Origin: Candidatus Zixiibacteriota bacterium
GTDB lineage: Bacteria; Zixibacteria; MSB-5A5; GN15; JAAZOE01
Assembly (NCBI GenBank): GCA_036480375.1
Contig: JAZGGI010000023.1
Location: forward strand, 1 to 64,000
DNA: 64,000 bases
Direction of reading: 5' to 3'
The first letter of the stretch is position 1. Every line of letters starts with the position of its first letter. Of the stretch, positions 15,226-57,605 are shown one piece after another. A model generated the notes under the pieces. That model made no database searches and was not told the DNA's origin. It was given only the letters and a program-made list of their open reading frames with translations. The position numbers were made by a program, and so were the translations under genes.

Positions 15226-16617
15226 CTAATCACAGCCGGGCGAGGGGCCGTTTCGAAATATATAATTTATCAAAAATACGGCATCTCCGACATTAACCTG
15301 TAAATCACAATTATTATCGCTGGCTTGATTTACGACAGGGGAGGGTCCGTTTTTGTAAATATGATTGATTAGGAATACAACGTCGCCCAAATTGACCTTA
15401 AGATTGCTATCTATATCACCATTTACAAATACAGATAAAGGAAAAACTATTCTACCGTCACCCAACGTTGATATATATTCTGAGTTTAAATCGTCAATGT
15501 TGATTGAATAGCGTCTTATACGGTTGATAATTTCCTGATTACTCTCTTCAGGATGGGCTTGAAACGCAAGCGCGGCCAATCCCGATACAAACGGCGCCGC
15601 AAACGATGTTCCGCCCCACCATCCCCATCCCTCATCATACGACAACGGACCATAGACATTGACTCCCGGCGCAGTCAGGCTAACGCTGTACCAATAATTT
15701 GAAAAATCCGCTTTTTTATCCAGCGAATCGACGGCAGTTACGTTAACGACGCAGTCATGACCGGCAGGGAATTTATTTATAAACTGGCCTTCATTTCCGG
15801 CCGCCGCAACCAGAAGCACGTTGTTTTCGCATGCTCGATCGAGCTCTTTGGAAATAACAGGATCAAATTCATCCATACCAAAACTCATATTAATAACTCG
15901 GGCCCCATGTTCAACGGCGTAACTGATGCTTTGCGCTATCCGAAAACTGGTACTGTTGCCGCTGCTGTTAAAACTTTTTAATATCATTAATGACGCTTCG
16001 GGAGCGCTGCGAGCGACAATCCCGGCAACAAAAGTACCATGATCTGCCATTCGACCCAGGCTTACCCATGGAGCCGCATCGTTTGATACAAAGTCATAAG
16101 ATAATTCGCTTAAATGGTTGTAAAAAATCGGGTGATTATTATCCAGTCCCCCGTCGATAATTGCAATTAATATATTTTCGCCGCGGCATATTTGATGGGC
16201 CGCATCAATAGAAATACCCGTTTGAGAATATTGCTGATAATAATGCTCCGGACTAACCCCTTCCTGGAATGGCGGAGCATCATAATCAACAAAAGGCTGG
16301 CTGATTTGATAGGGATTAATGGCGCAGTAAATATAATTTGGCTGGGCCATTTCTACTTCCGGCATGTCGCTTAATTTTTCCACCACCGTTTCTACATCGC
16401 TCGCACTGGGGAGACGAAGAAGAAAAAGATTACTCTCGTCAATTTCAGCTATAATAGTCGCGCCAAGCGAGTCAAGGATATTCTCAATTTCCTGCGGGGA
16501 ATAAACCTGGCAAATGATTCGATCCTCTTCGATGATGGCGTAATTGAATGAAGAAAAACACAGCAAGATTAGAGTGAATAAGGCGCGATAGTAATGTCTC
16601 TGAATTCTTATATTCAT
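15226..16617 (-). CDS. Secreted subtilisin-like (S8) protease with dockerin
   Basis: This is a 463-residue exported protease. A signal peptide (hydrophobic 12-25) is followed by an inhibitor-I9-like propeptide (about 30-100). The catalytic domain has Asp155 (AIIDGGLD), His193 (DHGTFVAGI), oxyanion Asn275 (AAAGNEG) and Ser338 (GGTSFAAP), so it should be active. Residues ~399-463 form a type I dockerin pair (GDIDSNLKVNLGDVVFLINHIY, then DNNCDLQVNVGDAVFLINYIF). It is the last gene of the sigma/CHAT operon. Its ribosome site (AAGGAAGAAA) overlaps the end of the CHAT gene, with a 10-base gap. It may be a downstream effector, or be matured by, the same regulatory unit. Confidence 0.9.
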   Translation of the reverse strand: MNIRIQRHYYRALFTLILLCFSSFNYAIIEEDRIICQVYSPQEIENILDSLGATIIAEIDESNLFLLRLPSASDVETVVEKLSDMPEVEMAQPNYIYCAINPYQISQPFVDYDAPPFQEGVSPEHYYQQYSQTGISIDAAHQICRGENILIAIIDGGLDNNHPIFYNHLSELSYDFVSNDAAPWVSLGRMADHGTFVAGIVARSAPEASLMILKSFNSSGNSTSFRIAQSISYAVEHGARVINMSFGMDEFDPVISKELDRACENNVLLVAAAGNEGQFINKFPAGHDCVVNVTAVDSLDKKADFSNYWYSVSLTAPGVNVYGPLSYDEGWGWWGGTSFAAPFVSGLAALAFQAHPEESNQEIINRIRRYSINIDDLNSEYISTLGDGRIVFPLSVFVNGDIDSNLKVNLGDVVFLINHIYKNGPSPVVNQASDNNCDLQVNVGDAVFLINYIFRNGPSPGCD

Positions 16618-16627
16618 TGTTTCTTCC

Positions 16628-19390
16628 TTATCCTGGCCCCAATAGGTAAAATGAAGCCCAATGTCGAGTGTCGTCGGTTAATGACTTCATTTCAAATATT
16701 GCGCCCCTTAAGGCTTCTCCGCAATTCATTCCAGAGGTCAGATGACGGTATAAGAAATCCATAAACACGCCGGTTATATCATCCGAGATAGGCCAATAGC
16801 TCGCCATGACCGCCTTTGCCCCAGAAAATAAAAACGATTGCGCCAGAGATGTAGTATTCCCTTTATAAAATAAGCCCGGATCACCGGTTTGGCAACCGGA
16901 AAGTATGATCAACCGGGAATTAATTTGACACGAATAGATGTCAAATGTATACAGGGGGCCATCGTCTAAAAGAATTTGCGAAAATAATTCATTTTCATAT
17001 GACTGGCGAGCGTGAGCCGCTATATGGACAAGACCGTTTGTTTCGCGCATACTGTTACGCAATTGATCGCTATTGGCATTTTGTCCGGCATAAATCCTTG
17101 CCTTTGGGAAATGTTTCCGAATAATGTTTTTTTCTGATTCTATGCCCGGAAGGTTATCGCCGGTGACCGCGAAAACATCAATATTTTTCGGGAATACTTT
17201 ATTCTTCCCGCCTTTCGATAGAAATGAAGCCGAGGGCAAGATGCGAGTTGAGTACTTTTCCGCTATTAAGCTACCGTCATCACAACTCAAAGCATAGAAT
17301 GGAATACGATTAACGAATCCATCTGGGATAATAAATAGCTTTTTGGCGTTGGGCATTTTGGATTCTATTTTATTCCAGATAATTTCAGATATTTCGGACA
17401 GGATATTTTTCGTGATCTGATTATCTAAAGCGTCATAAATCGATTTGACAACTATAAAATAAAAATTGCGAGTGAGTTTCCTGACGCCGTTCATTTCCGA
17501 AGCAAGAGATATAAAATCCGATGAATAATTACTTATGACAAAAGCTCCCGGGTGCTGATTGCGGATGGCATATTGGATTAAAACTTCCCCATCTGAAAGC
17601 CTGTCCTGAATTGATAACAAGTCGACGGGTATGGATTTATCCGGATAGATTTTATTAGTATCCGGTAACGAGCGGTTAATTTTCCAAATTTTTCTCTCAA
17701 CGCCATGAATTTTTTTATTATTATTCAGGATTCGCTCCGAAGATTCCGTTCCAACCGGCATAAGAGCTTTTCTCAGAGAAGCTTTTAGCGATTTATACTC
17801 ATCCCATAGTTCGCTTGAGGATTTAGTCTTTTGCCTTTTAATATCAAAAGAATCGTTCTTGTCAAATAGAATTGCTTTTCCCCGGTTGAGAATATCAAAA
17901 GCCTGTTTGTACTTCTTTTCCGCCAGGTAAATAGATACCAATTTTTCATAAGTGCTTAATTTGTCTATCCAGTAAAACCGTCGCATTTCATACGGGAAAA
18001 TACTAAGTTGAGATTTTTCCGCGACTTTGATGGCTCGGCGATACAATTTTGTTGCGCGATTTATATCTTGTCGTTTAGAATAAAGGTCGCCGGCAAGCGT
18101 ATAATATATGTATTTCTGATAACCAGCCATACCAGAAGTCGATTTTAGTAAAATATTATATAATCTGATTGCCTGTCCTGCTTTGTTTTGCGAGATTAAT
18201 CCATCAAGGAGCGCGAGCCGTACATCGATATATTTGCGAATGTTTCCACTGGTCTTATAATACCGAGAAATATGTTGTAGTGATTTAATAGCCGCTTCCG
18301 GTCGATTTTCACATATGTTTAATCTGGCCTTAAGGAACCTGCATGCCATCCGCCAGTGAACATTACTATGTTCAAATAGTTTAGTTGCTTTAATCAATAA
18401 TTGATTCACTCTTTCAAAATCACCGTGCGCGAAATAAGCTTCTGCCGAAAAATAGATAGATTTAGCCTGCTCATAAGACATGTTTAGATTTTCAAAATCT
18501 TTTGCAATGTCTGAAGCATCCTCAATCACCTGCCCATATAAATTCAGGTGCAAATTAATTTCGGTGCAGTCAAGTTCTGCTAATGCGACACATCTTTTAT
18601 CTCCCAAAGAAGCAAATTTATTTGCTACCTCTGAAAATTCCTTGAGGGAGTGGCTGTATTCGCCTTTTAGATAGCTAATATACGCCAGTGAATATTCGGC
18701 TTGGCAGGCGAACAAACTCAAATTTATCGATTCATAAATCTTGGCCGAGTTTCTGTATAATGACTCAGCCTGATTGATACGATTCAAATTCACCAGGACA
18801 TTGGCTTGATTGAATTGCACAAGAGCAATGGCATATTTATTTTTTCGCCGCGTAAAAACTTTGAGAGCTTTATCATAATAACGCAGGGCCGTTTTGTTTT
18901 CATCAATGCGATGATAGAGATTTCCAATATTGGTCATAACCTGGGCATAATCATCGGTAAGATCGGAACGTTTAAAATAATAGAGCGCCCGGCGACCCAT
19001 TTGAAGCGCTTCTTCTTTTTTCCCGCGATAAATTAAGACGTCCAAAAGAGCTTTTTGGATTTTCGCACGATTGAGAAAATCTCGCAATTCAGTGAAACTG
19101 TTTTCCGCTCTGATATACCATTTGTATGCATCGTTATATTTCCCGGATAGATGATAATGACGGCCTCGTATGCGATAGAGATGAGCTTTATATTTATCAG
19201 GCAATAAATTGTCCATAGAATTGAGTTTATTGATAAACTGTTCGGATTTATTCAAATCCGTACGAATAAGATTATCAGCCTCCGCGCCTAATTTTCCAAA
19301 AAATATTTCGACCGAACCCTGATAATGTTTATTCAAATATCCGGTAAAGGATTTTGAGGCTTTAGTATATTTTAACGATGGCATTTTCAT
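16628..19390 (-). CDS. TPR-CHAT caspase-like protease
   Basis: This 920-residue protein has no signal peptide. Roughly residues 1-480 are TPR-like helical repeats (for example YAQVMTNIGNLYHRIDENKTALRYY and KYAIALVQFNQANVLVNLN...A). After a linker, a CHAT domain fills the last ~300 residues, with the caspase-type dyad His793 (VHIAAHA) and Cys833 (LSGCQTG). CHAT proteases are relatives of separase and caspases and are often held inactive by their TPRs until a partner binds. The gene starts inside the stop of the preceding gene (ATGA overlap), which implies translational coupling. It shares an operon with a sigma factor and a subtilisin. Confidence 0.9.
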   Translation of the reverse strand: MKMPSLKYTKASKSFTGYLNKHYQGSVEIFFGKLGAEADNLIRTDLNKSEQFINKLNSMDNLLPDKYKAHLYRIRGRHYHLSGKYNDAYKWYIRAENSFTELRDFLNRAKIQKALLDVLIYRGKKEEALQMGRRALYYFKRSDLTDDYAQVMTNIGNLYHRIDENKTALRYYDKALKVFTRRKNKYAIALVQFNQANVLVNLNRINQAESLYRNSAKIYESINLSLFACQAEYSLAYISYLKGEYSHSLKEFSEVANKFASLGDKRCVALAELDCTEINLHLNLYGQVIEDASDIAKDFENLNMSYEQAKSIYFSAEAYFAHGDFERVNQLLIKATKLFEHSNVHWRMACRFLKARLNICENRPEAAIKSLQHISRYYKTSGNIRKYIDVRLALLDGLISQNKAGQAIRLYNILLKSTSGMAGYQKYIYYTLAGDLYSKRQDINRATKLYRRAIKVAEKSQLSIFPYEMRRFYWIDKLSTYEKLVSIYLAEKKYKQAFDILNRGKAILFDKNDSFDIKRQKTKSSSELWDEYKSLKASLRKALMPVGTESSERILNNNKKIHGVERKIWKINRSLPDTNKIYPDKSIPVDLLSIQDRLSDGEVLIQYAIRNQHPGAFVISNYSSDFISLASEMNGVRKLTRNFYFIVVKSIYDALDNQITKNILSEISEIIWNKIESKMPNAKKLFIIPDGFVNRIPFYALSCDDGSLIAEKYSTRILPSASFLSKGGKNKVFPKNIDVFAVTGDNLPGIESEKNIIRKHFPKARIYAGQNANSDQLRNSMRETNGLVHIAAHARQSYENELFSQILLDDGPLYTFDIYSCQINSRLIILSGCQTGDPGLFYKGNTTSLAQSFLFSGAKAVMASYWPISDDITGVFMDFLYRHLTSGMNCGEALRGAIFEMKSLTDDTRHWASFYLLGPG

Positions 19391-19974
19391 CTTAGTTCAA
19401 GTGTATCCACCATTGTTTTGGTTTTATCCCACGTTAAGTATAAACTGTATTGACCGGGGTTTACAACCGCGAATGAAAAGAAACCGTTGGCGTCGATCCG
19501 AGAGTTATAGATTTTTCTTCCGCGCAATTGAGCCCTGATTGATATTATTGATTCCCGGTCGATCTTTCCGGTCAACTCGAATTTTCCTGGGAATACCGGT
19601 AAAATGGCCAGCTCAATAAGTCCGGAATCAAATACATATCTCATCCGTCGTTCAGAGATCATTGACCGCCTGAGTCCTTCCGGAAGGGGGACGTAACGGC
19701 TGTCGAAAAATAATCGCGCCCGCGCAATTTTGGACTTTTTATTCCGTTTGCGATAATTATCAAAGATGGCATTAGCCATATCTATCGCCGGTTGTCGATT
19801 GCTGTTAAAATTAAGACTTTGGAACATATTAAATAGTTTTTTCAACACAGTCGCCTTTGATCGACTTTCGGGATCATTTTCAATAAACTTTGACCAGTAT
19901 TTCATAATATCTTTATTCCCTTTGACGTATTGCGCCAATATTTTGAGATCAGGTTTTTTTACCTTATTCTTCAT
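19387..19974 (-). CDS. Small protein with C-terminal Ig/carboxypeptidase-regulatory-like beta domain
   Basis: This is a protein of about 195 residues with no signal peptide. I prefer the ATG at 19974 to the in-frame TTG at 19980. The N-terminal ~95 residues are helical and basic. The C-terminal half has beta-rich strands ending GKFELTGKIDRESIISIRAQ and INANGFFSF-like DANGFFSFAVVNPGQYSLYL, a pattern like carboxypeptidase-regulatory or transthyretin-like folds. It overlaps the sigma gene by 11 bases and the CHAT gene by 4. The position suggests an anti-sigma, adaptor or substrate linking the two, but this is inference. Confidence 0.6.
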   Translation of the reverse strand: MKNKVKKPDLKILAQYVKGNKDIMKYWSKFIENDPESRSKATVLKKLFNMFQSLNFNSNRQPAIDMANAIFDNYRKRNKKSKIARARLFFDSRYVPLPEGLRRSMISERRMRYVFDSGLIELAILPVFPGKFELTGKIDRESIISIRAQLRGRKIYNSRIDANGFFSFAVVNPGQYSLYLTWDKTKTMVDTLELR

Positions 19975-20539
19975 AGCCAAATTCTTTCATTTTGAGACGA
20001 AGTTTTCCCAGGCATCGGCCCCGGGTAGGACCGATTGATGAGACGGGCATACCGAGCTTTTTGGCGATATTCTTATATGAGGCGTTATCCGTATCAAAAA
20101 ACAATAAATTAAGTAGTGTGCGACATTTTTTTGAAAGCGCGGAGAAGGCCCGGACTAAAATCGTTAAATCATCTTTTTGAATCAATTTTGGCAAATTCGA
20201 ATCGCAGGGGTTAAAAAAATATCGATTCAGGCCAATCTGTTTTATCTTCTCTCTCAACTTTCGGTCACGAGCTTTCAAGGCTCCTGCTTCCCGAGAACTG
20301 GCTGTTAATACGTATCCGTAAATTTGACGTTCATCCCTGATAGCCCCGAGATTCTCAAGTAACATCAGTGATATTTTCCCAAAGACATCAAAGCTTTCTT
20401 CTCGAGATAAACCAAATTTATGACACGCCGAAAATATAATCGGCGTGAGCCTGTCAATCAGCTCGGACCAGTCGTTTTTATTGCCACGCCGGCAGCCGTC
20501 GACTAATTTCTCAATACTTTTATTTTGAACTCCAGCCAT
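19964..20539 (-). CDS. ECF-like sigma-70 family factor heading the CHAT operon
   Basis: This 191-residue protein has a sigma region 2-like segment (about 15-85: LVDGCRRGNKNDWSELIDRL...VFGKISLMLLENL). Its region 4 helix-turn-helix lies at about 130-185 (LSKKCRTLLNLLFFDTDNASYKNIAKKLGMPVSSIGPTRGRCLGKLRLKM). The sequence is divergent in region 2, so promoter recognition may be unusual. It is the first gene of the operon sigma, beta-domain protein, CHAT and subtilisin, and is likely autoregulated. GGGGGAA lies just before the ATG. A palindrome-bearing promoter lies ~85-110 bases upstream. Confidence 0.8.
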   Translation of the reverse strand: MAGVQNKSIEKLVDGCRRGNKNDWSELIDRLTPIIFSACHKFGLSREESFDVFGKISLMLLENLGAIRDERQIYGYVLTASSREAGALKARDRKLREKIKQIGLNRYFFNPCDSNLPKLIQKDDLTILVRAFSALSKKCRTLLNLLFFDTDNASYKNIAKKLGMPVSSIGPTRGRCLGKLRLKMKEFGYEE

Positions 20540-20622
20540 TTCCCCCGGTGATGCATCTTTAATAAATGTTGAAGTTATCGCTTAACTATAATATAGAGAA
20601 TTATAACGAGATTTTGATACAA

Positions 20623-20652
20623 AAAATATTATCCGCACGGATAATTTGTCAA
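20623..20652 (-). promoter_or_regulatory. Promoter with palindromic operator for the sigma/CHAT operon
   Basis: On the minus strand TTGACA (20652-20647) is followed by a perfect 8-2-8 inverted repeat, ATTATCCG-NN-CGGATAAT (20628-20645). A TATTTT -10 candidate lies at 20628-20623 (18-base spacing; an ATATTT reading one base upstream gives 17). The palindrome almost exactly fills the spacer, as in the helicase promoter, but the half-site sequence differs. A dedicated dimeric repressor is likely, though its identity is unknown. Confidence 0.55.
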
Positions 20653-20777: not shown

Positions 20778-23700
20778 ATGAACAGGGGCACGCGCGTCAT
20801 CACTTTTATATTAATCGTGTTTGGATATAGCCTATCAATGGGGGGCGGTACATCATTTGTTAATATTGCGACTGACCCAAGTTCAGGTTTATACTACTCA
20901 GATTTTTCCATGGGAACGGCGGTTTTTGATTTTAATAATGATGGGCTGGACGATATTGTCGTTACCAATTATGCCGTTAACAAGGACCGCCTGTATATGT
21001 CGAACGGCGATGGTACGTTTACCGATATGTCCGAAATGGCCGGCGTAGCTACCCCGGTAAAAACTCTGGGCATAGCGACGGCGGATATTGATGCCAACGG
21101 ATTTATGGATTTTATGGTTTTTACAGAAGTTACATACTCTTCAGGTAGTTCAAATCCGGGGTATTTATATTTGAACAACGGCGATCAGACTTTTTCCGAT
21201 GCGGGTATATCGGAGCTTGTCTCATCTCATGGTTATGTCGGATATGCGGCGGCTTTTGCCGATATTAATCGCGACGGCAATCTTGATGTTTATTATGGCG
21301 GTCGAATGTTTCTTAATGATGGGAATCTGAATTTTAATGATGTTACCGAAAGCAGCGGTATCGGTTCGATCGGTTCTATTTCGCACGTCGCTTTTGGTGA
21401 TATTGATAATGATTTTGATCCTGATTTAGTGGTCTGCAGACAATATAACGGAAACACATCGCTTTTTCTGAATGATGGCACCGGTAATTTTTCATCGGGA
21501 GACTATTTAATTCCCGGATCTCCTTATGGGCTGTGTGCTACATTTGGAGATGTTGAAAATGACGGCGATTTGGATTTATTTCTATCTTATAGCAATAAGA
21601 TGTATTTAAACGACGGTTCCGGTCAATTCTCTATTAACTCGAATTGCGATGCTGTTCCCGCATATACTCGCGGAGCTATCCTTGCTGATTTTGATAATGA
21701 CGGTGATCCAGATTTATTTTTGCCCCAAGAAGGCATGCATCCTACTTATCATGAAAATATGGGTGGGGGAATTTTTATTGATAAAACTGATGAAGTTGGG
21801 ATCTTACCCGGAGAAGATAAGGCTGGTGGTATTGCCATTGGAGATTTTGAGGGCGATGGCGATTTGGATATATATATCGCCAAGACCGATAATCTTATAA
21901 ATCCATGTTTTATCAACCAACTGGATAATAACAACTCTATAGTTATTACTCCTCGGGGTACGATATCGAATTTCTCTGGTATCGGCGCCAAAGCATATAT
22001 TTATGAGAATGGATATGTCGGCGAAGTAACTCATCAGGTAGGAATGGCGGAATTGACATCAACCTCCGGTTTTTGTGCCGGTACCACGGGGAGAATTCAT
22101 TTGGGTACCGGAGGGCCGGGACTTTTTGATGTCCGAGTTGTGTTTCCGAGCGGCGCTGTGGTAGATGAAGCCGGGGTTGCTTCCGGAAGTCGCCTGATAA
22201 TTTACGAATCGGGAGATATCCCAAACTTTTTATATGTTTCTCCCAGTTCCAAGGTACTTGAATTGTCACAGGGCAGCGATCCCGAAATCGTTGAGTTTTC
22301 CATAACCGATTCCAAAGGCGAATCGATTGAATGGACGGCAAGCAGTCAAACTTCATTTATTGAGATATTGACGCCATCGGGAACAACACCGGCGACATTA
22401 CAAGTCCGGGCAAATCCATCCGGTTTGGGGCTCGGTAACCATACCGGTCAGATCGTTATAACCTCACCGGATGCCGTTAATACACCCAATCTCAATATAA
22501 CGATTGTAATTCATAATCGCTTCTTGCAGAATATAGCGGTTGAATCAGGCATGGCGCACAGCGATTTCAGTTTCGGAGCCGCGTTTTTCGATTATGATCT
22601 CGATGGTGACGATGATATTTTCGTTAATAATATAAACGGGCAATGCCGTCTTTATCAATCAAATGGGACAATATTTGAAAATGTTGCAGTATCGTCCGGG
22701 GTAGAGGCTGGTTTCCACAATCTGGGAGTCTTTGGAGGGGATCTAAACGCTGATGATTGGCCCGATATTTTATCATTTACGGAAGATAAAGAGGTTGGGT
22801 TTACTTATCTAAACACGGGATACGGCAATTTTGTTGACGCTCAGATACAGGAATTTTCGACGGCCGATGGTTTTAATGGTTATGCCGCGTCCGCGGCGGA
22901 TATAGATAATGACGGTGATCTGGATGTCTTTTATGGGGCCAAGCTATTTCGTAATGACGGAAATTTCGCGTTTGCCGACATTACCGAAGAAGCGGGGCTT
23001 TTGAATATACCGTTCACCTGTCGGGCGGCGTTCGGCGATGTCGATAATGACGGTGATATGGATATTTTTATGAATCGGCAAAATCGCGCGCCCTCACTTC
23101 TCTTTATAAATGACGGTACCGGTCATTTCTTAGAATCTTCTTATTATAAATCCAGTTTAGGTTACTTCCCGACCGCGGTGGGGGTATCGTTTGGAGACGT
23201 CGATAATGATGGAGATCTGGACATGTACACATGCGCCGGGTATTCCGATCCGAATAAATTATTCATTAATGACGGCAACGGGTATTTTACAGATAATACC
23301 GGTCCTTCGGGTACATCATGCACAAATTATAGCCGCGGGTCCGAATTTGTTGACATAGATCTGGATGGCGACCTGGATTTGATTGTCGCAAATGAAAACA
23401 GGTCAGCGCAGTTATTTGCCAACGACGGCAGTGGCATTTTTACAGATATAACCGATGCATGTGGAATTGATGATGGGCTTGCCAAGGCGGGAGCCGCTGT
23501 CGTTGGGGATTATGATAACGATGGCGACATGGATATATTCATTACCCGCACTGATTATATCATAAATTCATTTTTTGAAAACAACATCAATTTGGGACAA
23601 TATATCACTATTCAACCGGTGGGAATCGTCTCCAATCGAGCCGCGGTGGGAACCAAAGCCTACTTATATCCCGCCGGCCAATTGGGAAATCAGGATGCCC

Positions 23701-25814
23701 TGTATGCTTTTCGGGAATACAATATTTCCAATGGCTTTAATGGGTCGGGATCCAATCGAATTCATTTTGGCACGGGTACTGGAGACTTTTTTGATTTGAG
23801 ACTTATTTTCCCCTCAGGCGCCGTCTATGAACAAACCGGGATAACTCCGGGAATGCAATTAACCGTATATGAATCGGGTGAAATTCAGGATTATCTGGTT
23901 TTAATTCCCGGCAATTTCAATTTTAATTTTAAGGAAGGCGATGATGGGGCTTCAGCCGATTTGACGATTCGCAATTCCGCCGGTAACGCCATTCCATGGA
24001 CAGCGGTCGTGGATGACTCCTGGTGTCAGCTTAGTGAGTATTCAGGTGTAACCGATGACGAAATAACGATTACCGTAAATCCGTTTGAATTATCCGCAGG
24101 GTATTATGAAGCCAATATAACTATAACTGCTAATGATGCCATCAATTCTCCCCGAACAATATCTGTACGCATGATTATCGAAAGCGATCAACCGGTACTG
24201 GCATTATCCTCCGATAATTTATATTTCACGGCCGAATACATGGGATTTAATCCCTGGCCGCAATCGTTTACCATCCTGAATACAGGTCAGGGTACTCTTG
24301 ATTGGACGCTGACGACTTCAGGCGAAGAATGGCTGGAGGTGTATCCATTATCAGGTTCTGCTCCGACCAATGTACAAGTAACCTGCGCGATCAACGGATT
24401 GGAGCCGGGACTATATACTTCGACAATCACGGTAACATCACCGGAAGCAATTGGTAGCCCTGCTCAACTTACCGTTAATTTAGAGGTAATTCCGGGAGAT
24501 ACACCTGAGAAAGATACCGTTCGAATTGAATCTGTAACGGTTGAGCCGGGTCAACAAGTAGAAGTACCGGTTTACCTCAACAATGTTACCGAAGCAGCGG
24601 CTTTTAGCATACCTCTGAAATTTGACAATACCGTTTTAATGTGCGATTCGGTCTCTTATGCCGATACGCGCGTTGACTATATAAACGTAGTAACCTCAAA
24701 TATTGATTCGGCTAACGGCCAGGTTCTACTGGGGATGGTCGTATTTATGGAAGATAATTTGGCCCCCGGAGAGGGCATGGTTGCGAGAATGTTTATGACT
24801 ATTTATCCGGATGCGGAGGAGCAAGTATCGGTAATCGACACCTTGTTTTTCCCGCCGGGGGGAGAGTTTTCGCTTTTCGATCCGACTTCGGCGCAAATTG
24901 TTCCGGAATTCATAAAGAGTAATATATTCATTTCTCTTAATCCTGAAGGGGATGCCGACGGCAGTGGAACGATAAATGTCGGAGACGCGGTTTATCTCGT
25001 TAATTATTGCTTCAAGGGACAGCGTCCGCCGATTCCTATTCAAGCCGGCGATGCGAATACTGACGAGAATGTCAACGTCGGTGACGTGGTTTACCTGATT
25101 AATTATATCTTCCGCCACGGACCACCGCCGAACGCCAAACCCAAAACATCAACGTCTCCGGTTTATTATTATACGGAGGAAATTCCAGGCAAAAATGGAA
25201 CGGAATTCAGACTATATCTCAATAGTGATGTAGCCCTGGGCGGAGTCCAATGCGAATTCTACGATAGGGGCGAATATTTGACCATCTCCGACGTTCAAAT
25301 CGGTGAACTTGTAGAAGGTCTGGATCTATACGGCGGAAAGTCGGGCAAATCTTATCGATTTGGCATTGTCGATTTGGAGGGCGCCGGAGAAGTTCGGGCC
25401 GGAGAGGGAGCGTTATTATCGCTTACATATGATCGGGCGCTTAGCTTCGAGATGAATTCATTTATGGTATTTGATAAATTCGGCAATGAATTACCGGTTT
25501 ATAACGGTCACGGAAATAAACCGGATGTCCTGCCTTCGCATTATAGCCTGGAACAAAATTATCCCAATCCTTTCAACCCATCGACTACGATTAAATACGC
25601 AATTGCCAATGAAGGGCATGTTAAGTTATCGATATATAACGTCCTTGGTCAAAAAGTTGTCGATTTGGTTAACACCAATCAGAAGCCGGGAGCTTATACA
25701 GTAATATGGGATGGCAATAATAATGCCGGATCGGCGGTCGCATCCGGAGTGTATTTCTATCGACTTAAAACTGAAGTATATACGGATTCGAAAAAGATGA
25801 TTCTTTTGAAATAA
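20778..25814 (+). CDS. Very large secreted protein: VCBS/ASPIC repeats, BACON-like, cohesin-like, dockerin, sorting domain
   Basis: This is a 1678-residue exported protein. A signal peptide precedes two tandem blocks of FG-GAP/VCBS calcium-binding repeats (D.DNDGDLDLF, DIDNDGDLDVFYG and the like). Each block ends in an ASPIC/UnbV-like domain (IGAKAYIYENG...FGTG...FDLRLIFPSGAV). Between and after them are BACON-like Ig modules, then a cohesin-like domain (about 1240-1390), a type I dockerin (about 1395-1450) and a C-terminal type IX-like sorting domain (SLEQNYPNPFNPSTTIKYAI ... WDG ... SGVYFYRLK ... KMILLK). It is probably anchored at or released from the outer surface. The role is unknown, with adhesion or substrate binding most likely. 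Strong AGGAGGG ribosome site. Confidence 0.85.
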   Translation: MNRGTRVITFILIVFGYSLSMGGGTSFVNIATDPSSGLYYSDFSMGTAVFDFNNDGLDDIVVTNYAVNKDRLYMSNGDGTFTDMSEMAGVATPVKTLGIATADIDANGFMDFMVFTEVTYSSGSSNPGYLYLNNGDQTFSDAGISELVSSHGYVGYAAAFADINRDGNLDVYYGGRMFLNDGNLNFNDVTESSGIGSIGSISHVAFGDIDNDFDPDLVVCRQYNGNTSLFLNDGTGNFSSGDYLIPGSPYGLCATFGDVENDGDLDLFLSYSNKMYLNDGSGQFSINSNCDAVPAYTRGAILADFDNDGDPDLFLPQEGMHPTYHENMGGGIFIDKTDEVGILPGEDKAGGIAIGDFEGDGDLDIYIAKTDNLINPCFINQLDNNNSIVITPRGTISNFSGIGAKAYIYENGYVGEVTHQVGMAELTSTSGFCAGTTGRIHLGTGGPGLFDVRVVFPSGAVVDEAGVASGSRLIIYESGDIPNFLYVSPSSKVLELSQGSDPEIVEFSITDSKGESIEWTASSQTSFIEILTPSGTTPATLQVRANPSGLGLGNHTGQIVITSPDAVNTPNLNITIVIHNRFLQNIAVESGMAHSDFSFGAAFFDYDLDGDDDIFVNNINGQCRLYQSNGTIFENVAVSSGVEAGFHNLGVFGGDLNADDWPDILSFTEDKEVGFTYLNTGYGNFVDAQIQEFSTADGFNGYAASAADIDNDGDLDVFYGAKLFRNDGNFAFADITEEAGLLNIPFTCRAAFGDVDNDGDMDIFMNRQNRAPSLLFINDGTGHFLESSYYKSSLGYFPTAVGVSFGDVDNDGDLDMYTCAGYSDPNKLFINDGNGYFTDNTGPSGTSCTNYSRGSEFVDIDLDGDLDLIVANENRSAQLFANDGSGIFTDITDACGIDDGLAKAGAAVVGDYDNDGDMDIFITRTDYIINSFFENNINLGQYITIQPVGIVSNRAAVGTKAYLYPAGQLGNQDALYAFREYNISNGFNGSGSNRIHFGTGTGDFFDLRLIFPSGAVYEQTGITPGMQLTVYESGEIQDYLVLIPGNFNFNFKEGDDGASADLTIRNSAGNAIPWTAVVDDSWCQLSEYSGVTDDEITITVNPFELSAGYYEANITITANDAINSPRTISVRMIIESDQPVLALSSDNLYFTAEYMGFNPWPQSFTILNTGQGTLDWTLTTSGEEWLEVYPLSGSAPTNVQVTCAINGLEPGLYTSTITVTSPEAIGSPAQLTVNLEVIPGDTPEKDTVRIESVTVEPGQQVEVPVYLNNVTEAAAFSIPLKFDNTVLMCDSVSYADTRVDYINVVTSNIDSANGQVLLGMVVFMEDNLAPGEGMVARMFMTIYPDAEEQVSVIDTLFFPPGGEFSLFDPTSAQIVPEFIKSNIFISLNPEGDADGSGTINVGDAVYLVNYCFKGQRPPIPIQAGDANTDENVNVGDVVYLINYIFRHGPPPNAKPKTSTSPVYYYTEEIPGKNGTEFRLYLNSDVALGGVQCEFYDRGEYLTISDVQIGELVEGLDLYGGKSGKSYRFGIVDLEGAGEVRAGEGALLSLTYDRALSFEMNSFMVFDKFGNELPVYNGHGNKPDVLPSHYSLEQNYPNPFNPSTTIKYAIANEGHVKLSIYNVLGQKVVDLVNTNQKPGAYTVIWDGNNNAGSAVASGVYFYRLKTEVYTDSKKMILLK

Positions 25815-27908: not shown

Positions 27909-28436
27909 ATGAAGCGGATATTAGGCTTCATATTCTTATTTTGTGTTATTGGAGTACTAAATCCGGTTAGTACTCTGGCGCAGGAATCAGGGACTATTCA
28001 GGCCATAGCCACAGTTGTTTCAAGTCTGCAGGTTATCGGCATCAATAACCTGAATTTTGGAACGGTTACTCCTGGTGTCAACAAATCTGTCAATAAGGCT
28101 GACGCCGGTTTCGCCGGTGAATGGCAGGTTAACGGTACGCCATCAGCCCAGATGACAGTCGATATCGCGATACCCCCGGTATTAATGCATTCCGATTCGT
28201 CGGCGACACTCATAGTGACCTATACAAGCACCGACGCTTCTTATGATGATGGCACCGGTGGAGGACAATCCAATCCTTCGGGGACTCTGGATCCCAACGG
28301 CCAGAGTATATTGAATCTGGGGCCGGGAGGTACAATGAATGTTTGGATTGGTGGTACGGCTCAACCGACAGTTGCGCAAACGGGAGGAAATTACAGCGCT
28401 GACGTTGTATTAAGCGTGGCTTATACCGGCAATTAA
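27909..28436 (+). CDS. DUF4402 fimbrial subunit-like protein 1
   Basis: This 175-residue exported protein has a signal peptide ending near TLAQE and then one DUF4402 beta domain: GTIQAIATVVSSLQVIGINNLNFGTVTPGV near the start and SADVVLSVAYTGN at the end. The final alternating hydrophobic strand with a near-terminal Tyr is what chaperone-usher pilins offer to their chaperone. It is the first of six tandem genes of this type before a PapD-like chaperone and an usher. AAGGAGG lies before the ATG, and a sigma-54-like site lies upstream. Confidence 0.8.
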   Translation: MKRILGFIFLFCVIGVLNPVSTLAQESGTIQAIATVVSSLQVIGINNLNFGTVTPGVNKSVNKADAGFAGEWQVNGTPSAQMTVDIAIPPVLMHSDSSATLIVTYTSTDASYDDGTGGGQSNPSGTLDPNGQSILNLGPGGTMNVWIGGTAQPTVAQTGGNYSADVVLSVAYTGN

Positions 28437-28488
28437 CAGGCCGCTGCGCAGGGTCACTGTTTTAATTAAAGTTCTCCCAAATGCTTAA

Positions 28489-28516
28489 TTGACATTTTGG
28501 GTAAATGCGGTATATT
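28489..28516 (+). promoter_or_regulatory. Promoter TTGACA-N16-TATATT
   Basis: TTGACA (28489-28494) and TATATT (28511-28516) are 16 bases apart, so the start point would be near 28523. The next gene begins with TTG at 28552. This gives the second subunit gene its own promoter inside the cluster. Confidence 0.55.
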
Positions 28517-28551
28517 AGAGATGTACACATCTTGTTACATCGGATACCGTT

Positions 28552-28983
28552 TTGCGCCCAAAATTTGTCTTATTATACGCGATTTTTGTTTTCTGGCTAA
28601 CTCCGTTGCCTAATGAAATGATAGTTTTTGCGGGGGAGCCAACTATCCGTTCAGCGTCGGCGGAAATATCGGCGATGGCGACAGTTATAAATCCCCTTGG
28701 ATTTTCTTCTTTAAAAGATGGTAACAGCTCAATGGTAAAAGCCAATCATAATTTTCTGGATAATCTAAACGAAAATTGTGAACGCGACTATTATAGAGTA
28801 CTTTGGCTGCCGAATAATCAAAATGTGGCGATTATGATAAATAATAATAAAGGCCTCGGACATGCCGACCTTTTATCCGGATCGTCAGAAGAAATCTTAT
28901 ATATCAATCTTTCCGATCTGATAATGACTAATCAAAAGATTGATTCAGCTATTGTAATTACTATCGCTCCGATCGATAATTGA
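28552..28983 (+). CDS. Divergent DUF4402-like subunit
   Basis: This 143-residue exported protein has a TTG start and no strong ribosome site. A signal peptide (about 1-28) is followed by IRSASAEISAMATVINPLGF, matching the first strand of the neighbouring DUF4402 proteins. It ends DSAIVITIAPIDN, like their last strand. The middle is unrelated and shorter. It may be a minor or tip subunit of the same fimbria. Sequence similarity is weak and the assignment depends on position and on the conserved edge strands. Confidence 0.55.
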   Translation: MRPKFVLLYAIFVFWLTPLPNEMIVFAGEPTIRSASAEISAMATVINPLGFSSLKDGNSSMVKANHNFLDNLNENCERDYYRVLWLPNNQNVAIMINNNKGLGHADLLSGSSEEILYINLSDLIMTNQKIDSAIVITIAPIDN

Positions 28984-29001
28984 ATCCGAATTTATTTAAT
29001 A

Positions 29002-29028
29002 TTGACATAGGCGGGCGGCGCCTATAAC
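29002..29028 (+). promoter_or_regulatory. Promoter directly abutting the start codon at 29037
   Basis: TTGACA (29002-29007) and TATAAC (29023-29028) are 15 bases apart. The expected start point (about 29035) falls at the ATG at 29037, and no Shine-Dalgarno is present. This suggests a leaderless mRNA. Confidence 0.45.
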
Positions 29029-29036
29029 TTGCTTTT

Positions 29037-29510
29037 ATGCGGTTCTATATTTTATTTATAGCCTCGATTTCAATTTTTTTTATTATTCCCGCGATTTGCG
29101 TATCCCAAAATATTACTATAGATAATAATCTGACCTTCGGGACAGTTATTCCGGGTATTCCCAAAATTATCGATAAAACCAATGCCGGTTCGGCGTCCGA
29201 ATTTCAGGTCAGCGGTGTAGCCGGAAACGAGATAACTATTGATTTTAGCCTGCCGACATATATGAATTCCGGCAGTAATAATATTCAACTGGTTTTTTCG
29301 GAAACTGATTGCTCTATTGATACCAGCGCCGTCCCCGACCAGAGTAGTCCCATCTTTGATGATCTGGACCCGTGGCATACACTGACCTATCGCCTGGGAG
29401 CTAATGGAATGACGATCTGGCTGGGGGGTATGGCCATTCCAGGTCTGGTACAACCGGCGGGCAGTTATTCGGGGGTAATAGTTCTTACGGTAGCCTATAC
29501 GGGCAGCTAA
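29037..29510 (+). CDS. DUF4402 fimbrial subunit-like protein 2
   Basis: This 157-residue exported protein has a signal peptide ending near ICVSQ and then a compact DUF4402 domain (NLTFGTVIPGIPKIIDKTNAG ... MTIWLGGMAIPGLVQPAGSY ... IVLTVAYTGS). It is most like the subunit at 27909. It lacks a visible ribosome site and may be translated from a leaderless transcript. Confidence 0.75.
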   Translation: MRFYILFIASISIFFIIPAICVSQNITIDNNLTFGTVIPGIPKIIDKTNAGSASEFQVSGVAGNEITIDFSLPTYMNSGSNNIQLVFSETDCSIDTSAVPDQSSPIFDDLDPWHTLTYRLGANGMTIWLGGMAIPGLVQPAGSYSGVIVLTVAYTGS

Positions 29511-29678
29511 TATTTAATCCACGTAATAATTGTTCATTCCATAAACAACCTTGCAGATTAAGACATTTTTTTCACGGCAAAATATGGCATAATGCCTCAA
29601 TTAAGACGAATACAGAATTGGAAAGCATAATTTGCCTTGATGGGAAAGGCATAAAGAGAATAAATTTCGGAGAGCAAC

Positions 29679-30254
29679 ATGGATACAAAATATTTTACCC
29701 GACATGGCCAGCTATCAGCGTTTTTAATTTCAATTCTGCTTTTACTCGTTTTTCAACCAGCCCAGGCCCAGGATGTTGCTAACGGTTCTGCCACCGCCAC
29801 CGTATTGGCTGCCTTGCAGGTAGTAGCGACATCACCCTTAGCCTTTGGAAACGTTTATCAGGGCGTCGCCAAAACGATTGATAAAAATACCGCTGATGCC
29901 GGGATATTTGACATTACCGGAGCCGCCAACGCCGATTTACTTATGTATATGAATTTGCCCGAGTATATTGCCACTGCTACCGGCGATGATCGTATGACCA
30001 TCGCGTTCAGTTCTTCCAGTTGCGATATGGATACCGCCCTGGCGGCTCAGCCGGGCGACCCGACATCATTCATCGATGGCTGGCAGGCTATTGATCCTCA
30101 TGATATTATGAATGTTGCCGGAGCCGATCCTTGTTTGGGCGATGCCGGATTTTGCGCCATTTTTATCGGCGGGAAAGTAACACCGCGCATAAATCAAACA
30201 GCCGGAGCCTATAGCGGCGATATTATTCTAACTGTAGCATACCAGGGAACTTAG
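29679..30254 (+). CDS. DUF4402 fimbrial subunit-like protein 3
   Basis: This 191-residue exported protein has a signal peptide ending in PAQAQ and a DUF4402 domain: ANGSATATVLAALQVVATSP, FGNVYQGVAKTI and the closing GDIILTVAYQGT. It carries a two-Cys segment (DPCLGDAGFCAIFIGGK), probably a disulphide. It belongs to a closely similar trio with the two following genes. CGGAGAG precedes the ATG, and the gene has its own terminator. Confidence 0.8.
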   Translation: MDTKYFTRHGQLSAFLISILLLLVFQPAQAQDVANGSATATVLAALQVVATSPLAFGNVYQGVAKTIDKNTADAGIFDITGAANADLLMYMNLPEYIATATGDDRMTIAFSSSSCDMDTALAAQPGDPTSFIDGWQAIDPHDIMNVAGADPCLGDAGFCAIFIGGKVTPRINQTAGAYSGDIILTVAYQGT

Positions 30255-30278
30255 ATCATAAATTCCCAAAGAGGGGAA

Positions 30279-30318
30279 AAGGATGGGATGGCGCTCATAA
30301 GGGTACCATCCTTTTTTA
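30279..30318 (+). terminator. Rho-independent terminator within the fimbrial cluster
   Basis: AAGGATGG (30279-30286) pairs with CCATCCTT (30306-30313), with a 19-base loop and a T-run. It separates the third subunit gene from the later ones. Confidence 0.7.
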
Positions 30319-30656
30319 TTGCCTTTCAACAACTTCCATAAATCAGACAAAATATAGTGCCACCGTTTAGGGTACTTTAGTCATTACCGCCCAATTTATT
30401 CCTTGAAAACTGCAATAGCGTTTTGCGAGAATTTTTCAAACTCTTGCAAATTGCCTGTTTTTTTTTGCAATAACTGTAAAGCTTTTGAACTGTATGACGA
30501 TGTACATAATAAGAAACTGGCTAATGGTTCAAATGTTGGACAATTAGAAAAGAGGGAGTGCCGTCCACAGGGGAGTTAAATATTCAATGGATTTGAAGGT
30601 TCGAAATGAAAATAAAAAAAACATATAAAGGGAATTTTTATTTCAAGGAGAGAAGT

Positions 30657-31232
30657 ATGTTTACATCATCAAGGATGAACAAAGGCTTTATTCTTCTGGT
30701 TGCCGTGATGACAATGATGATATTGGGTCATGCCACCGTCCAGGCGCAGGATGTAGCCAATGGTTCAGCCACAGCCACGGTCGTAACAGCTTTGACTGTC
30801 GCAGCTACCAGTCCTTTGGTCTTCGGTACGGTTTATCAGGGCGTACCCAAATCAATTAGTAAAAACGTCGCCGAAGCTGCTATTTTCGATATCGCCGGTC
30901 AAGCCAACGCTGATTTGTTGCTTTATCTGTCGCTTCCGGAATTTGTCGCTACCGCTACCGGTGACGACCGAATGGTAGTTGCTTTTGGCGTCGCCGATGC
31001 CGATATCGATACCGGATTGGCCGCTCAGCCGGGTGACCCGACCGGTTTCGTTAGTGGTTGGCAGGGCGAAGATCCTCATAATTTGATGGGCGTCGCGGGC
31101 GAAACACCCTGTCTCGGTGATGCCGGATTTTGCGCCATATTCGTTGGCGGTAAAGTTATCCCAACTCTGGACCAGACTGCGGGAGCTTACACTGGCGACA
31201 TTATCTTAACTGTCGCTTATGATGGAACCTGA
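30657..31232 (+). CDS. DUF4402 fimbrial subunit-like protein 4
   Basis: This 191-residue exported protein is preceded by AAGGAGAGAAGT. An in-frame ATG at 30606 lacks such a site. The signal peptide ends at TVQAQ. The mature part is very similar to the next gene product (ANGSATATVVTALTVAATSP, FGTVYQGVPKSISKNV, LLLYLSLPEFVATATGDDRM), with the same two-Cys loop (TPCLGDAGFCAIF). The high similarity indicates a recent tandem duplication. It is preceded by ~340 bases of noncoding DNA that probably holds its promoter. Confidence 0.8.
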   Translation: MFTSSRMNKGFILLVAVMTMMILGHATVQAQDVANGSATATVVTALTVAATSPLVFGTVYQGVPKSISKNVAEAAIFDIAGQANADLLLYLSLPEFVATATGDDRMVVAFGVADADIDTGLAAQPGDPTGFVSGWQGEDPHNLMGVAGETPCLGDAGFCAIFVGGKVIPTLDQTAGAYTGDIILTVAYDGT

Positions 31233-31257
31233 TTTTACTTGCTTAAAGGAGATGAAA

Positions 31258-31833
31258 ATGCAAGTTAATTCACGGATGAATAATAAAATTTTATGGATTA
31301 TTCTGGCTCTAATCGCCGTTTTGATTTCCAATTCGGCAATTATGGCACAGGATGTGGCCAATGCTCAAATCACTGCCACCGTCGTAACGGCGCTGACAGT
31401 GGCGGCCACCAGTCCTTTGGCGTTCGGTACGGTTTATCAGGGCGTGCCCAAGTCAATCAGCAAAAACGTCGCGGATGCCGCTATCTTTGATATCGCTGGT
31501 CAGGCTAACGCTGATTTGTTGCTTTATCTTTCCCTTCCGGAGTTTGTCGCTACGGCGACAGGTGATGATCGTATGACGGTTGTCTTTGGAGCCACCGTCG
31601 CCGATATCGACACCGCTCTGGCGGCTCAACCCGGCGATCCGACCAGTTTTACTGACGGTTGGCAGGCTGAAGATCCACATGATCTGATGGCGGTCGCTGG
31701 CGCTACTCCCTGTCTTGGTGATGCCGGATTTTGCGCTATTTTTATAGGCGGTAAGGTAATTCCTACTTTGGATCAAACTGCGGGAGCTTACACCGGCGAC
31801 ATTATCTTGACTGTTGCCTATGATGGAACCTAA
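31258..31833 (+). CDS. DUF4402 fimbrial subunit-like protein 5
   Basis: This is a 191-residue exported protein. I choose the ATG at 31258, six bases after AAAGGAG. Other in-frame ATGs at 31219 and 31252 are less well placed. The signal peptide ends at AIMAQ. The mature domain is nearly identical in pattern to subunit 4 over its whole length and ends GDIILTVAYDGT. It lies 25 bases after subunit 4, so the two are co-transcribed. It is probably a major or alternative pilin subunit. Confidence 0.8.
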   Translation: MQVNSRMNNKILWIILALIAVLISNSAIMAQDVANAQITATVVTALTVAATSPLAFGTVYQGVPKSISKNVADAAIFDIAGQANADLLLYLSLPEFVATATGDDRMTVVFGATVADIDTALAAQPGDPTSFTDGWQAEDPHDLMAVAGATPCLGDAGFCAIFIGGKVIPTLDQTAGAYTGDIILTVAYDGT

Positions 31834-31862
31834 ATTTAGATTGAGCTGAAGAAATAAGATTC

Positions 31863-31906
31863 GCCTCTTTTCGGAGCCGCGATGGAATGTTGTTCTGAAA
31901 AGAGGC
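31863..31906 (+). promoter_or_regulatory. Stem-loop in the leader of the chaperone gene
   Basis: GCCTCTTTTC (31863-31872) pairs perfectly with GAAAAGAGGC (31897-31906) across a 24-base loop. It lies between the last subunit and the chaperone start. It has no T-run, so it may be a processing or stability element that lowers chaperone expression relative to subunits. Confidence 0.45.
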
Positions 31907-31935
31907 TTAGATTTATAAAACATGGGATGGTTATT

Positions 31936-32817
31936 ATGTCTGTATCAAACAATTCCCAATCAGTCAAATTGAGATATCTTTTGGGCAAAGTTTATATCGT
32001 CGTCATTGCGACGATATTATTTGCGTTTATGGTATCCAATGTCATAGCGGGAGTTTTAGTGGCTCCAACGGTGGTAATTCTATCGGACAAAAGCCGGACG
32101 GGTCGCCTGAATCTTGAAAATCCCTCCAACAAACCCAAGGAGATTGAAGTATTTTTCAGTTTCGGCATTCCCGAATCAGACAGCCTCGGCAATATCGAAT
32201 TGACTCTGCAGGATTCCAATGTGACCGATCCGAAATCAGCGCTGGGATGGATCCGTGTTTTTCCTCGGAAGCTGGTTCTGCCCCCTAACGGATCGCAGGT
32301 GGTCAGGCTGGTCGCTCATCCTCCGAAAGATTTGCCCGACGGTGAATACTGGGCCCGTATAATTATCCGCTCTCAGGAGGGCGAGACATCGATACCGGCG
32401 TCAACCGATAATACTCAGATTACTACGCAACTGAACATGGTCATGCAAACCGCTATTTCCCTCAAGTATCGGACCGGGGAATTGGCGGCGAAAATCGATT
32501 TGGCGAATTTCAACGCGCAATATAAAGACGGTGGGGTGGAAGTATTGGCCGATTTGATTAATCAGGGCAATGTTTCCTATCTGGGGGTCGTTACCTGCCG
32601 CCTGCTCGACGCCGATAATCGTTTAATAAGCTCCAGCGACGGAAATCTGGCTGTTTATAGGAACATTCGAAAACGCATGAATCTTGGAATTCCGGAAGGC
32701 GATTTCAAACAGCCTTATCAAGTCGAATTGAAAATTAGCTGTGAAGGACGAACCGATATCGCACGAAACGATATTGTTTTTGGCAATGACATAAACTATA
32801 CCGCTATCGTAGATTAG
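31936..32817 (+). CDS. PapD-like fimbrial chaperone
   Basis: The exported protein has about 293 residues (signal peptide ending near VIAGV). Typical chaperone strands are visible: VLVAPTVVILSDKSRTGRLNLENPSNKPKEIEV (strands A-B, with Arg as in PapD-type subunit binding), LGWIRVFPRKLVLPPNGSQVVRLVAHPP (strands F-G, with alternating hydrophobics) and DGEYWARIIIRS. In-frame ATGs also occur at 31882 and 31927. I prefer 31936 because the first lies inside a stem-loop. It should cap DUF4402 subunits in the periplasm and hand them to the usher encoded next. Confidence 0.8.
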   Translation: MSVSNNSQSVKLRYLLGKVYIVVIATILFAFMVSNVIAGVLVAPTVVILSDKSRTGRLNLENPSNKPKEIEVFFSFGIPESDSLGNIELTLQDSNVTDPKSALGWIRVFPRKLVLPPNGSQVVRLVAHPPKDLPDGEYWARIIIRSQEGETSIPASTDNTQITTQLNMVMQTAISLKYRTGELAAKIDLANFNAQYKDGGVEVLADLINQGNVSYLGVVTCRLLDADNRLISSSDGNLAVYRNIRKRMNLGIPEGDFKQPYQVELKISCEGRTDIARNDIVFGNDINYTAIVD

Positions 32818-56906: not shown

Positions 56907-57602
56907 TTAATTTATTATACGTTTCGGGCTAAGATTACCCATAAGCTGGTAGCGCGACGGTATTTCAAGGCGTTTATAAATACTTATTTTCTGTTTATAA
57001 ACCTCAGCCAGTCGAAGTTTGATTTCCTGATTATGCGGATGACGCTCCATGGCGGTTTTGATGATCGCAATTTTTTCATTAAGCCCGTTTAATTGACTAA
57101 TGAAATAATCCTGCACTTCCGGCGGATATTTATCGCCCTGGCTCATCATAAACAATGAAACGTACGCTACCTCAGGATTTATTTCACCCGCCTGAACCTG
57201 ATTGTTATTGCCGCCCATATCGGTCGATAAATCCGGCATCAAGGTTAATATTATTACCAATAATACGGTCGCTACAACACCCGCTAAAGGTATGGAATTT
57301 TTATACGAATGTAAAAAGGAAAATTGAAAAATCGGATGGGAATTATCGCCTTCTTCCCAGGGATGTTCATCAACCGCCAGGGAAATCCTTTCCCATAAAT
57401 AATTGGGTGGTTGAAAATTCCCCAATTTTGGGGAAACGTTAGATAATTCGACGTAAAAATCGGCTTCTTTCCTGCAATCTTCGCAGATTTCCAGGTGTTT
57501 TTGCACCTTGTTTTCGATCTTCGGACGTAAGGGATCATCGGTCCTGTCCGAAAGGAGCCTTTTTATGAGTTGGCATTTATAATGAAAAAGTGGCATAATC
57601 AT
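56907..57602 (-). CDS. Membrane anti-sigma factor with zinc-finger motif
   Basis: This 231-residue protein has an N-terminal cytosolic part with H-x3-C-x2-C (KHLEICEDCRKEADFY), the zinc-binding anti-sigma signature. One membrane helix follows (about 105-122: SIPLAGVVATVLLVIILTLM), then a periplasmic tail with helical repeats (KTAMERHPHNQEIKLRLAEVYKQKI). It starts three bases after the sigma gene stop. It should hold the ECF sigma factor at the membrane until a signal triggers its release. Confidence 0.85.
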   Translation of the reverse strand: MIMPLFHYKCQLIKRLLSDRTDDPLRPKIENKVQKHLEICEDCRKEADFYVELSNVSPKLGNFQPPNYLWERISLAVDEHPWEEGDNSHPIFQFSFLHSYKNSIPLAGVVATVLLVIILTLMPDLSTDMGGNNNQVQAGEINPEVAYVSLFMMSQGDKYPPEVQDYFISQLNGLNEKIAIIKTAMERHPHNQEIKLRLAEVYKQKISIYKRLEIPSRYQLMGNLSPKRIIN

Positions 57603-57605
57603 ATC

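Follow-up and report, generated by a model that had tools for sequence, protein, structure and literature searches.

A sigma factor, anti-sigma-like protein and TPR-CHAT protease cassette with a predicted secreted subtilase, conserved in Candidatus Zixiibacteriota

Introduction

What would a caspase-like protease act upon when it is encoded in one operon with an ECF-type sigma factor, a small protein and a subtilase predicted to leave the cell? Such an operon lies in the first 64,000 nucleotides of contig JAZGGI010000023.1 of a Candidatus Zixiibacteriota bacterium (the whole of this stretch is referred to as the window). The preliminary description, made from the DNA alone, recognised a four-gene operon (sigma factor, beta-domain protein, TPR-CHAT protease and secreted dockerin subtilisin), proposed that the CHAT protease may cut the beta-domain protein or the sigma factor, with the exported subtilisin as output, and called the whole a strong candidate for an undescribed unit of proteolytic signalling. 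'Undescribed' is too strong. The ECF54 section of a review (PMC8999054), which summarises the neighbourhood studies of Huang 2015 and Casas-Pastor 2021, already reports conserved carboxypeptidase(-like), subtilase and CHAT genes beside the sigma gene and proposes that control is proteolytic, with no anti-sigma factor involved. The gene neighbourhood itself is thus known and not new. Two characterised systems are close in design. In the first, Craspase, Csx29 cleaves Csx30, an anti-sigma factor that binds CASP-sigma and inhibits it (PMC10028731). In the second, DdvA is the anti-sigma factor of DdvS (PMC4374960), which has an antiphage island under its control (PMC12288465). We have analysed the conservation of the operon, the domains of its products and their relationship to these systems.

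Results

Organisation of the operon

The operon is on the minus strand, and its four open reading frames follow one another as sigma, P2 (the small second protein), TPR-CHAT and S8 subtilase, which confirms the preliminary description. The sigma gene (20539-19964, 191 aa) overlaps the P2 gene (19974-19387, 195 aa from the ATG) by 11 bases (ATGAAGAATAA). P2 in turn overlaps the TPR-CHAT gene (19390-16628, 920 aa) by the four bases ATGA, and a gap of 10 bases separates TPR-CHAT from the subtilase gene (16617-15226, 463 aa); all three junctions are exactly as claimed. The upstream limit given earlier for the operon, 20652, is the end of a promoter -35 hexamer and not of coding sequence; the sigma gene starts at 20539. 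This putative promoter (20623..20652, minus strand) is sigma70-like, with TTGACA as the -35 and AATATT or TATTTT as the -10 element; it is a consensus match only, at 10 of 12 positions. Between the -35 and -10 elements is a perfect 8-bp dyad, ATTATCCG-NN-CGGATAAT (20628..20645), that by its sequence looks like a repressor operator. A search of the genome for an exact second copy of ATTATCCG-NN-CGGATAAT found none, so no regulon can be traced from the dyad. Comparison by eye of the DNA upstream of 41 sigma genes revealed no obvious shared autoregulatory ECF promoter; several of these genes have promoters of the TTGACA type.

The sigma factor is a divergent member of the ECF group. It consists of the sigma2 and sigma4 regions only, with the length of about 190 residues typical of the group, and matches TIGR02937 over residues 24-184 (1.6e-8, below the curated cut-off) and Sigma70_r4_2 (0.0026). 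The sigma4 region of the cassette sigma factors holds a conserved motif, IPVSSIGPTRxRCL. The genome encodes a single sigma factor of the cassette type (1.8e-64, with the next match at 1e-17).

The two proteases

Pfam identifies a CHAT domain (1.2e-39) and TPRs in the third protein. The TPRs span about residues 27-510, and the CHAT domain residues 663-918 (16637..17404, minus strand). His793 and Cys833, named earlier as an intact active site, are indeed present, and the His and Cys are kept in all 43 CHAT proteins that we aligned, as are H789 and D817. The protein has the domain and catalytic residues of a CHAT caspase-like protease. It is the only CHAT protein encoded in the genome. Its AlphaFold2 model (pLDDT 84.5) was compared with the PDB using Foldseek. 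The best match is Csx29 in the Cas7-11/Csx29/Csx30 complex (8EEY, E 2.5e-15, probability 1.00), followed by further Craspase TPR-CHAT proteins, human separase and DdvA of Myxococcus (8RW5/8ROT). The model shares the TPR-CHAT fold of Craspase, though whole-chain TM-scores are only 0.31-0.38 for Csx29 and about 0.25-0.45 across the bacterial matches; these low values place the likeness at the level of domains, and the geometry of the TPRs differs. Sequence searches of the PDB matched no CHAT-type chains other than those of the Craspase TPR-CHAT and, weakly, of DdvA.

The subtilase has a signal-like N-terminus, an inhibitor-like propeptide of the fervidolysin type (Fervidolysin_NPro-like, 3.6e-10), an S8 domain (Peptidase_S8, 5.9e-37) and a dockerin module at residues 400-453 (15259..15420, minus strand; Dockerin_1, 3.1e-6). 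The triad Asp155/His193/Ser338 is in place as the preliminary description stated; across 42 subtilases the Asp and the His are kept in every sequence and the Ser in 41, the remaining one having a gap. At the C-terminus, most relatives have a dockerin-like module and three an NPFN-type motif. An N-terminus resembling a signal peptide is found in 40 of the 42 subtilases, and a hydrophobic segment in none of 35 P2 proteins. The sigma factor, P2 and the CHAT protein are therefore predicted to be cytoplasmic and the subtilase to be exported. Downstream of the cassette there is often (L036, L043, L046, L047, L050 and L068) another large secreted protein of about 800-900 aa that resembles the S8/dockerin protein; it is a possible fifth component or target.

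Conservation of the cassette

Absence of the gene order from every related genome had been put forward as one finding that would refute the preliminary reading; the order does recur in relatives. A scan of genome contigs with the single CHAT sequence gave no match; a scan with an alignment did, and its best matches are metagenome-assembled genomes of Candidatus Zixiibacteriota. CHAT homologues were found in 44 of 60 relatives. Wide regions were fetched around 40 CHAT homologues. Another 39 named loci were added, of which many lie on the same contigs. The order sigma - P2 - TPR-CHAT - subtilase recurs across the phylum, often in two or more copies per genome. Among 36 long CHAT genes, with all genes on one strand, a sigma gene is just upstream in 31, a P2-sized gene lies between the two in 30, and an S8 gene is just downstream in 34. 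Pooling the named loci for group A with the fetched regions for group B (the groups are defined below) gives 43 CHAT proteins, 36 sigma factors, 35 P2 proteins, 42 subtilases and 33 complete cassettes; several of the incomplete cassettes are at contig ends (L074, L079, L085, L089, L093). The catalytic residues of both proteases are kept, and the unit is a conserved and co-inherited one, which supports the preliminary reading on this point.

The cassettes fall into two groups by the identity of their CHAT protein to that of the window: group A (30-45%), to which the window belongs, and group B (about 25%). In most group A loci the end of P2 and the start of CHAT overlap by ATGA. Recurrence of the order in relatives whose CHAT proteins share only 30-45% identity places it far beyond chance on the sequence comparison. 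The full order is also found once in Acidobacteria, at locus L098 of a metagenome-assembled genome. Locus L049 (G034:C2:525000-538500) is rearranged, with sigma, P2 and S8 genes on one strand and CHAT divergent. The match to P2 there (G034:C2:528873-529412) lies between sigma and S8, so at this locus P2 has stayed with the sigma factor and not with CHAT.

Protein distances over 21 group A cassettes are correlated in Mantel tests, most strongly for P2 and CHAT (r 0.84), with the other pairs at 0.57-0.65; the weakest is sigma and CHAT (0.57). For each pair, all 2000 permutations fell short of the observed correlation. Shared ancestry accounts for part of the signal, which is evidence of co-inheritance rather than contact. 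The N-terminal domain of P2 co-varies with the TPR part of CHAT at 0.70, as against 0.45 with the sigma factor. This fits a contact of P2 with CHAT and could also be noise from a short domain; P2 may primarily be a partner of CHAT.

P2 contains a cryptic anti-sigma domain

P2 was described at the outset as a beta-domain protein. This holds for its C-terminal part; the N-terminal half, whose helical nature was missed, has an anti-sigma domain in the first 75 residues. No Pfam family matches P2 convincingly. The AlphaFold2 model (29 sequences, pLDDT 89) has four helices followed by a beta sandwich. The helices (residues 10-75, 19750..19947, minus strand) form the anti-sigma domain, from which the zinc ligands have been lost; its assignment draws on the model, hhalign comparison and genome-wide retrieval. 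The sandwich (residues 109-194, from residue 87 in the model; 19393..19650, minus strand) is of the Ig-like or carboxypeptidase-regulatory-like type. Between them is the most conserved segment of P2 (residues 90-109, 19648..19707, minus strand), with the pattern FDS..xPLPeGvR......R, in which D91, S92 and R102 are invariant across groups A and B (29 and 33 sequences). The model gives it mostly as a loop (residues 92-108), with confidence slightly reduced there. We regard this junction as a candidate region for recognition or cleavage by CHAT.

The N-terminal part of P2 was aligned by hhalign with a reference alignment of 27 zf-HC2 anti-sigma domains taken from related genomes. Group A scores 40.1 (probability 93) and group B 41.3 (probability 95), compared with maxima of 13.8 (group A) and 19.7 (group B) in 100 column-shuffled decoys; helical windows of CHAT/TPR or the sigma factor score at most 14.0. 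The clade of P2 nearest to the window, which with 5 sequences is too shallow, gives no anti-sigma match when used alone (hhalign probability 2.6). An HxxxCxxC-type zinc motif (Hx3-4Cx2C) is present near the N-terminus in 10 of 13 P2 proteins from group B and Acidobacteria, the acidobacterial one among the ten, and has been lost in group A (0 of 46, including the window).

In a scan of 134 genomes from the phylum, a P2 profile had matches in 81 (E <= 1e-4). The match is strong in about 56 of the 81 and confined to the N-terminus in the rest. Twenty of the N-terminal-only matches were fetched: 19 have the zinc motif, 19 are directly downstream of an ECF sigma gene, and all 20 show at least one of the two features. 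By sequence, the genome-wide profile is retrieving classical anti-sigma factors beside ECF sigma factors. A profile of 28 zinc-less group A P2 proteins, run against the 1549 ORFs of 50 such loci, matched only proteins of anti-sigma type; this set is rich in anti-sigma factors by construction, and its other ORFs were not matched. Pfam detects the domain weakly, with zf-HC2 found at E <= 0.05 in 3 of 29 members (best 0.0032). A Foldseek search of the PDB with whole P2 returned Ig/FN3-like matches to the beta domain only and no anti-sigma structure, and PDB sequence searches with P2 returned no anti-sigma chain. Judged by the profile comparisons, the N-terminus of P2 is a cryptic anti-sigma domain homologous to the ZAS/zf-HC2 domains of class I anti-sigma factors. 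The arrangement may have been described as lacking an anti-sigma factor because Pfam misses this domain.

Comparison with known systems

P2 shares with class I anti-sigma factors the homologous N-terminal domain, and most group B members still have the zinc motif; group A proteins, that of the window included, differ in having no zinc ligands. HxxxCxxC marks the ZAS subset and not the whole class, in which zinc-less members are common (PMC7406223). A further difference is that P2 is fused to an Ig-like domain with the FDS...GvR motif and not to a transmembrane helix.

The operon resembles the ECF54 context in having an ECF sigma gene beside CHAT, subtilase and carboxypeptidase(-like) genes. 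It differs in the anti-sigma domain of P2, where the ECF54 description has no anti-sigma factor in the context, in the dockerin subtilase that is predicted to be exported, and in phylum. The best match to the sigma factor in a plasmid collection is from Nonomuraea, beside S8 and CHAT genes. This cassette (Nonomuraea gerenzanensis, L111:5883-10563) has the order S8 - sigma - short ORF - CHAT, consistent with the ECF54 context; its P2-like ORF is much shorter and without an evident anti-sigma domain, and its S8 protein has no evident signal peptide. Another CHAT gene of Nonomuraea (L148) lies outside any cassette. Two sigma matches on Streptomyces plasmids (L112, L113) were discarded as cassettes, there being no CHAT, P2 or S8 match adjoining.

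The type III-E system (Csx29/Csx30/CASP-sigma) provides the best fold match and likewise encodes a TPR-CHAT protein, an anti-sigma partner and an ECF sigma factor together. Here there is no Cas7-11 beside the cassette, no RNA trigger is expected, a secreted subtilase is added, and P2 is much smaller than Csx30. The genome has no cas1, and no Cas genes are evident among the ORFs of the window that were inspected. Myxococcus xanthus DdvS/DdvA (PDB 8ROT, 8RW5) also links an ECF sigma factor and an anti-sigma factor to CHAT. DdvA, however, is a single chain that comprises an anti-sigma domain, a transmembrane helix and a CHAT domain, whereas the window encodes two soluble proteins plus the subtilase. 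On the features compared, the cassette would work in the manner of Craspase/Csx30 and of a split DdvA, but it belongs to neither. As far as we have checked, three things are new: that P2 has an anti-sigma domain, that the cassette is spread across the phylum with paralogues, and that its subtilase is predicted to be secreted and bears a dockerin.

Discussion

Our preferred reading, to which we assign a probability of about 0.55, is that the operon encodes a cytoplasmic sigma/anti-sigma switch run by a caspase-like protease that cuts P2. The helical N-terminal domain of P2 would bind and inhibit the ECF sigma factor, and the C-terminal sandwich would be a docking or regulatory part. The TPR-CHAT protein would be a signal-gated endopeptidase whose TPR superhelix senses the cue. 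When active, it would cut P2, most likely in or beside the conserved junction; the fragments would be degraded and the sigma factor freed. The exported dockerin subtilase would be co-produced as an output or as an effector on the envelope side. The binding of P2 to sigma, its cleavage and the site, and the existence of a signal and a regulon are what we infer; gene order, co-inheritance, catalytic residues, the anti-sigma homology of P2 and the fold likeness of CHAT to Csx29 and DdvA are observed. Both P2 and the sigma factor had been proposed as targets of CHAT; the anti-sigma domain makes P2, rather than sigma, the logical candidate substrate, and we favour it.

The same components could operate without cleavage of P2. 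TPR-CHAT might control an anti-sigma P2 by binding, through partner switching or scaffolding as in a DdvA divided over two chains, while proteolysis is directed at CHAT itself or at another substrate. DdvA is an anti-sigma factor that bears a CHAT domain and matches in fold and in sequence, and it is with the TPR part that the N-terminus of P2 shows its strongest co-variation (r 0.70). A pure scaffold would have no need of the catalytic His and Cys and nearby Asp, invariant in 43 of 43 CHAT proteins, and the Csx29-Csx30 precedent is proteolytic; control by binding is in our judgement unlikely. Still less probable is degradation or trimming of the sigma factor by CHAT, an idea put forward from this same gene neighbourhood for ECF54 groups believed to have no anti-sigma factor (PMC8999054), since P2 carries such a domain and sigma and CHAT are the most weakly co-varying pair (0.57).

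Other readings shift the purpose of the operon. Csx29 and Csx30 belong to a CRISPR system, DdvS has control of an antiphage island, and the cassette might be a defence or death module, with CHAT as the sensor of infection and the sigma factor and subtilase as the arm that carries out the response. The PADLOC model matches are weak and partial and concern single proteins only, the genome has no cas1, and the predicted export of a dockerin-bearing subtilase argues against this, as do the several cassettes per genome and clade-wide inheritance, which resemble ordinary signalling; we find a defence role improbable. The subtilase, as the most faithfully kept neighbour of CHAT (42 of 43), could alternatively be the protease under control, with CHAT and sigma serving only to regulate secreted proteolysis and P2 acting as a protease inhibitor or chaperone. 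The signal-like N-terminus in 40 of 42 subtilases points to another compartment, however, and the P2 N-terminus matches anti-sigma factors and not protease inhibitors, which makes this arrangement very improbable.

Under the preferred reading of P2 cleavage by CHAT, a wider and more tentative suggestion can be made. A free-standing, CRISPR-independent TPR-CHAT/anti-sigma/sigma switch, found widely in Zixiibacteriota and also in Acidobacteria, is a possible source of both Csx29-Csx30-CASP-sigma (by CRISPR recruitment) and DdvA (by fusion), although we would not put this above a modest chance. If true, anti-sigma cleavage by caspase-like proteases would be a general route of bacterial signalling, with secreted proteolysis as an output. 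The preferred reading itself places Craspase and DdvA in a wider CHAT/anti-sigma/sigma family, which bears on the roles of bacterial caspase-like proteases outside cell death. For ECF54-like loci, it gives a concrete and testable mechanism in which the missing anti-sigma factor is the small 'carboxypeptidase-like' protein. Such cassettes would also offer transcription switches gated by a protease and independent of an RNA guide.

Flanking DNA

Several features of the window outside the operon were recorded. A divergent gene (20778-25814), whose start is 238 bases from the sigma gene, encodes a secreted protein of 1678 aa with FG-GAP/VCBS-like repeats, a dockerin and the C-terminus YPNPFNPSTTI. 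A tandem run of small secreted paralogues of the TVVTALTVAATSPLxFGTVYQG type (27909-32817) is followed by PapD-like chaperone-like and large usher-like proteins (32846-35473), and together these look like a surface-fibre locus. At 949-3525 is a P-loop NTPase-like protein with long, near-identical TPR repeats, an array that has been recently amplified. The window also contains a second, ordinary pair of an ECF sigma factor and a zf-HC2 membrane anti-sigma factor (56907-58181), followed by a large protein (54684-56894).
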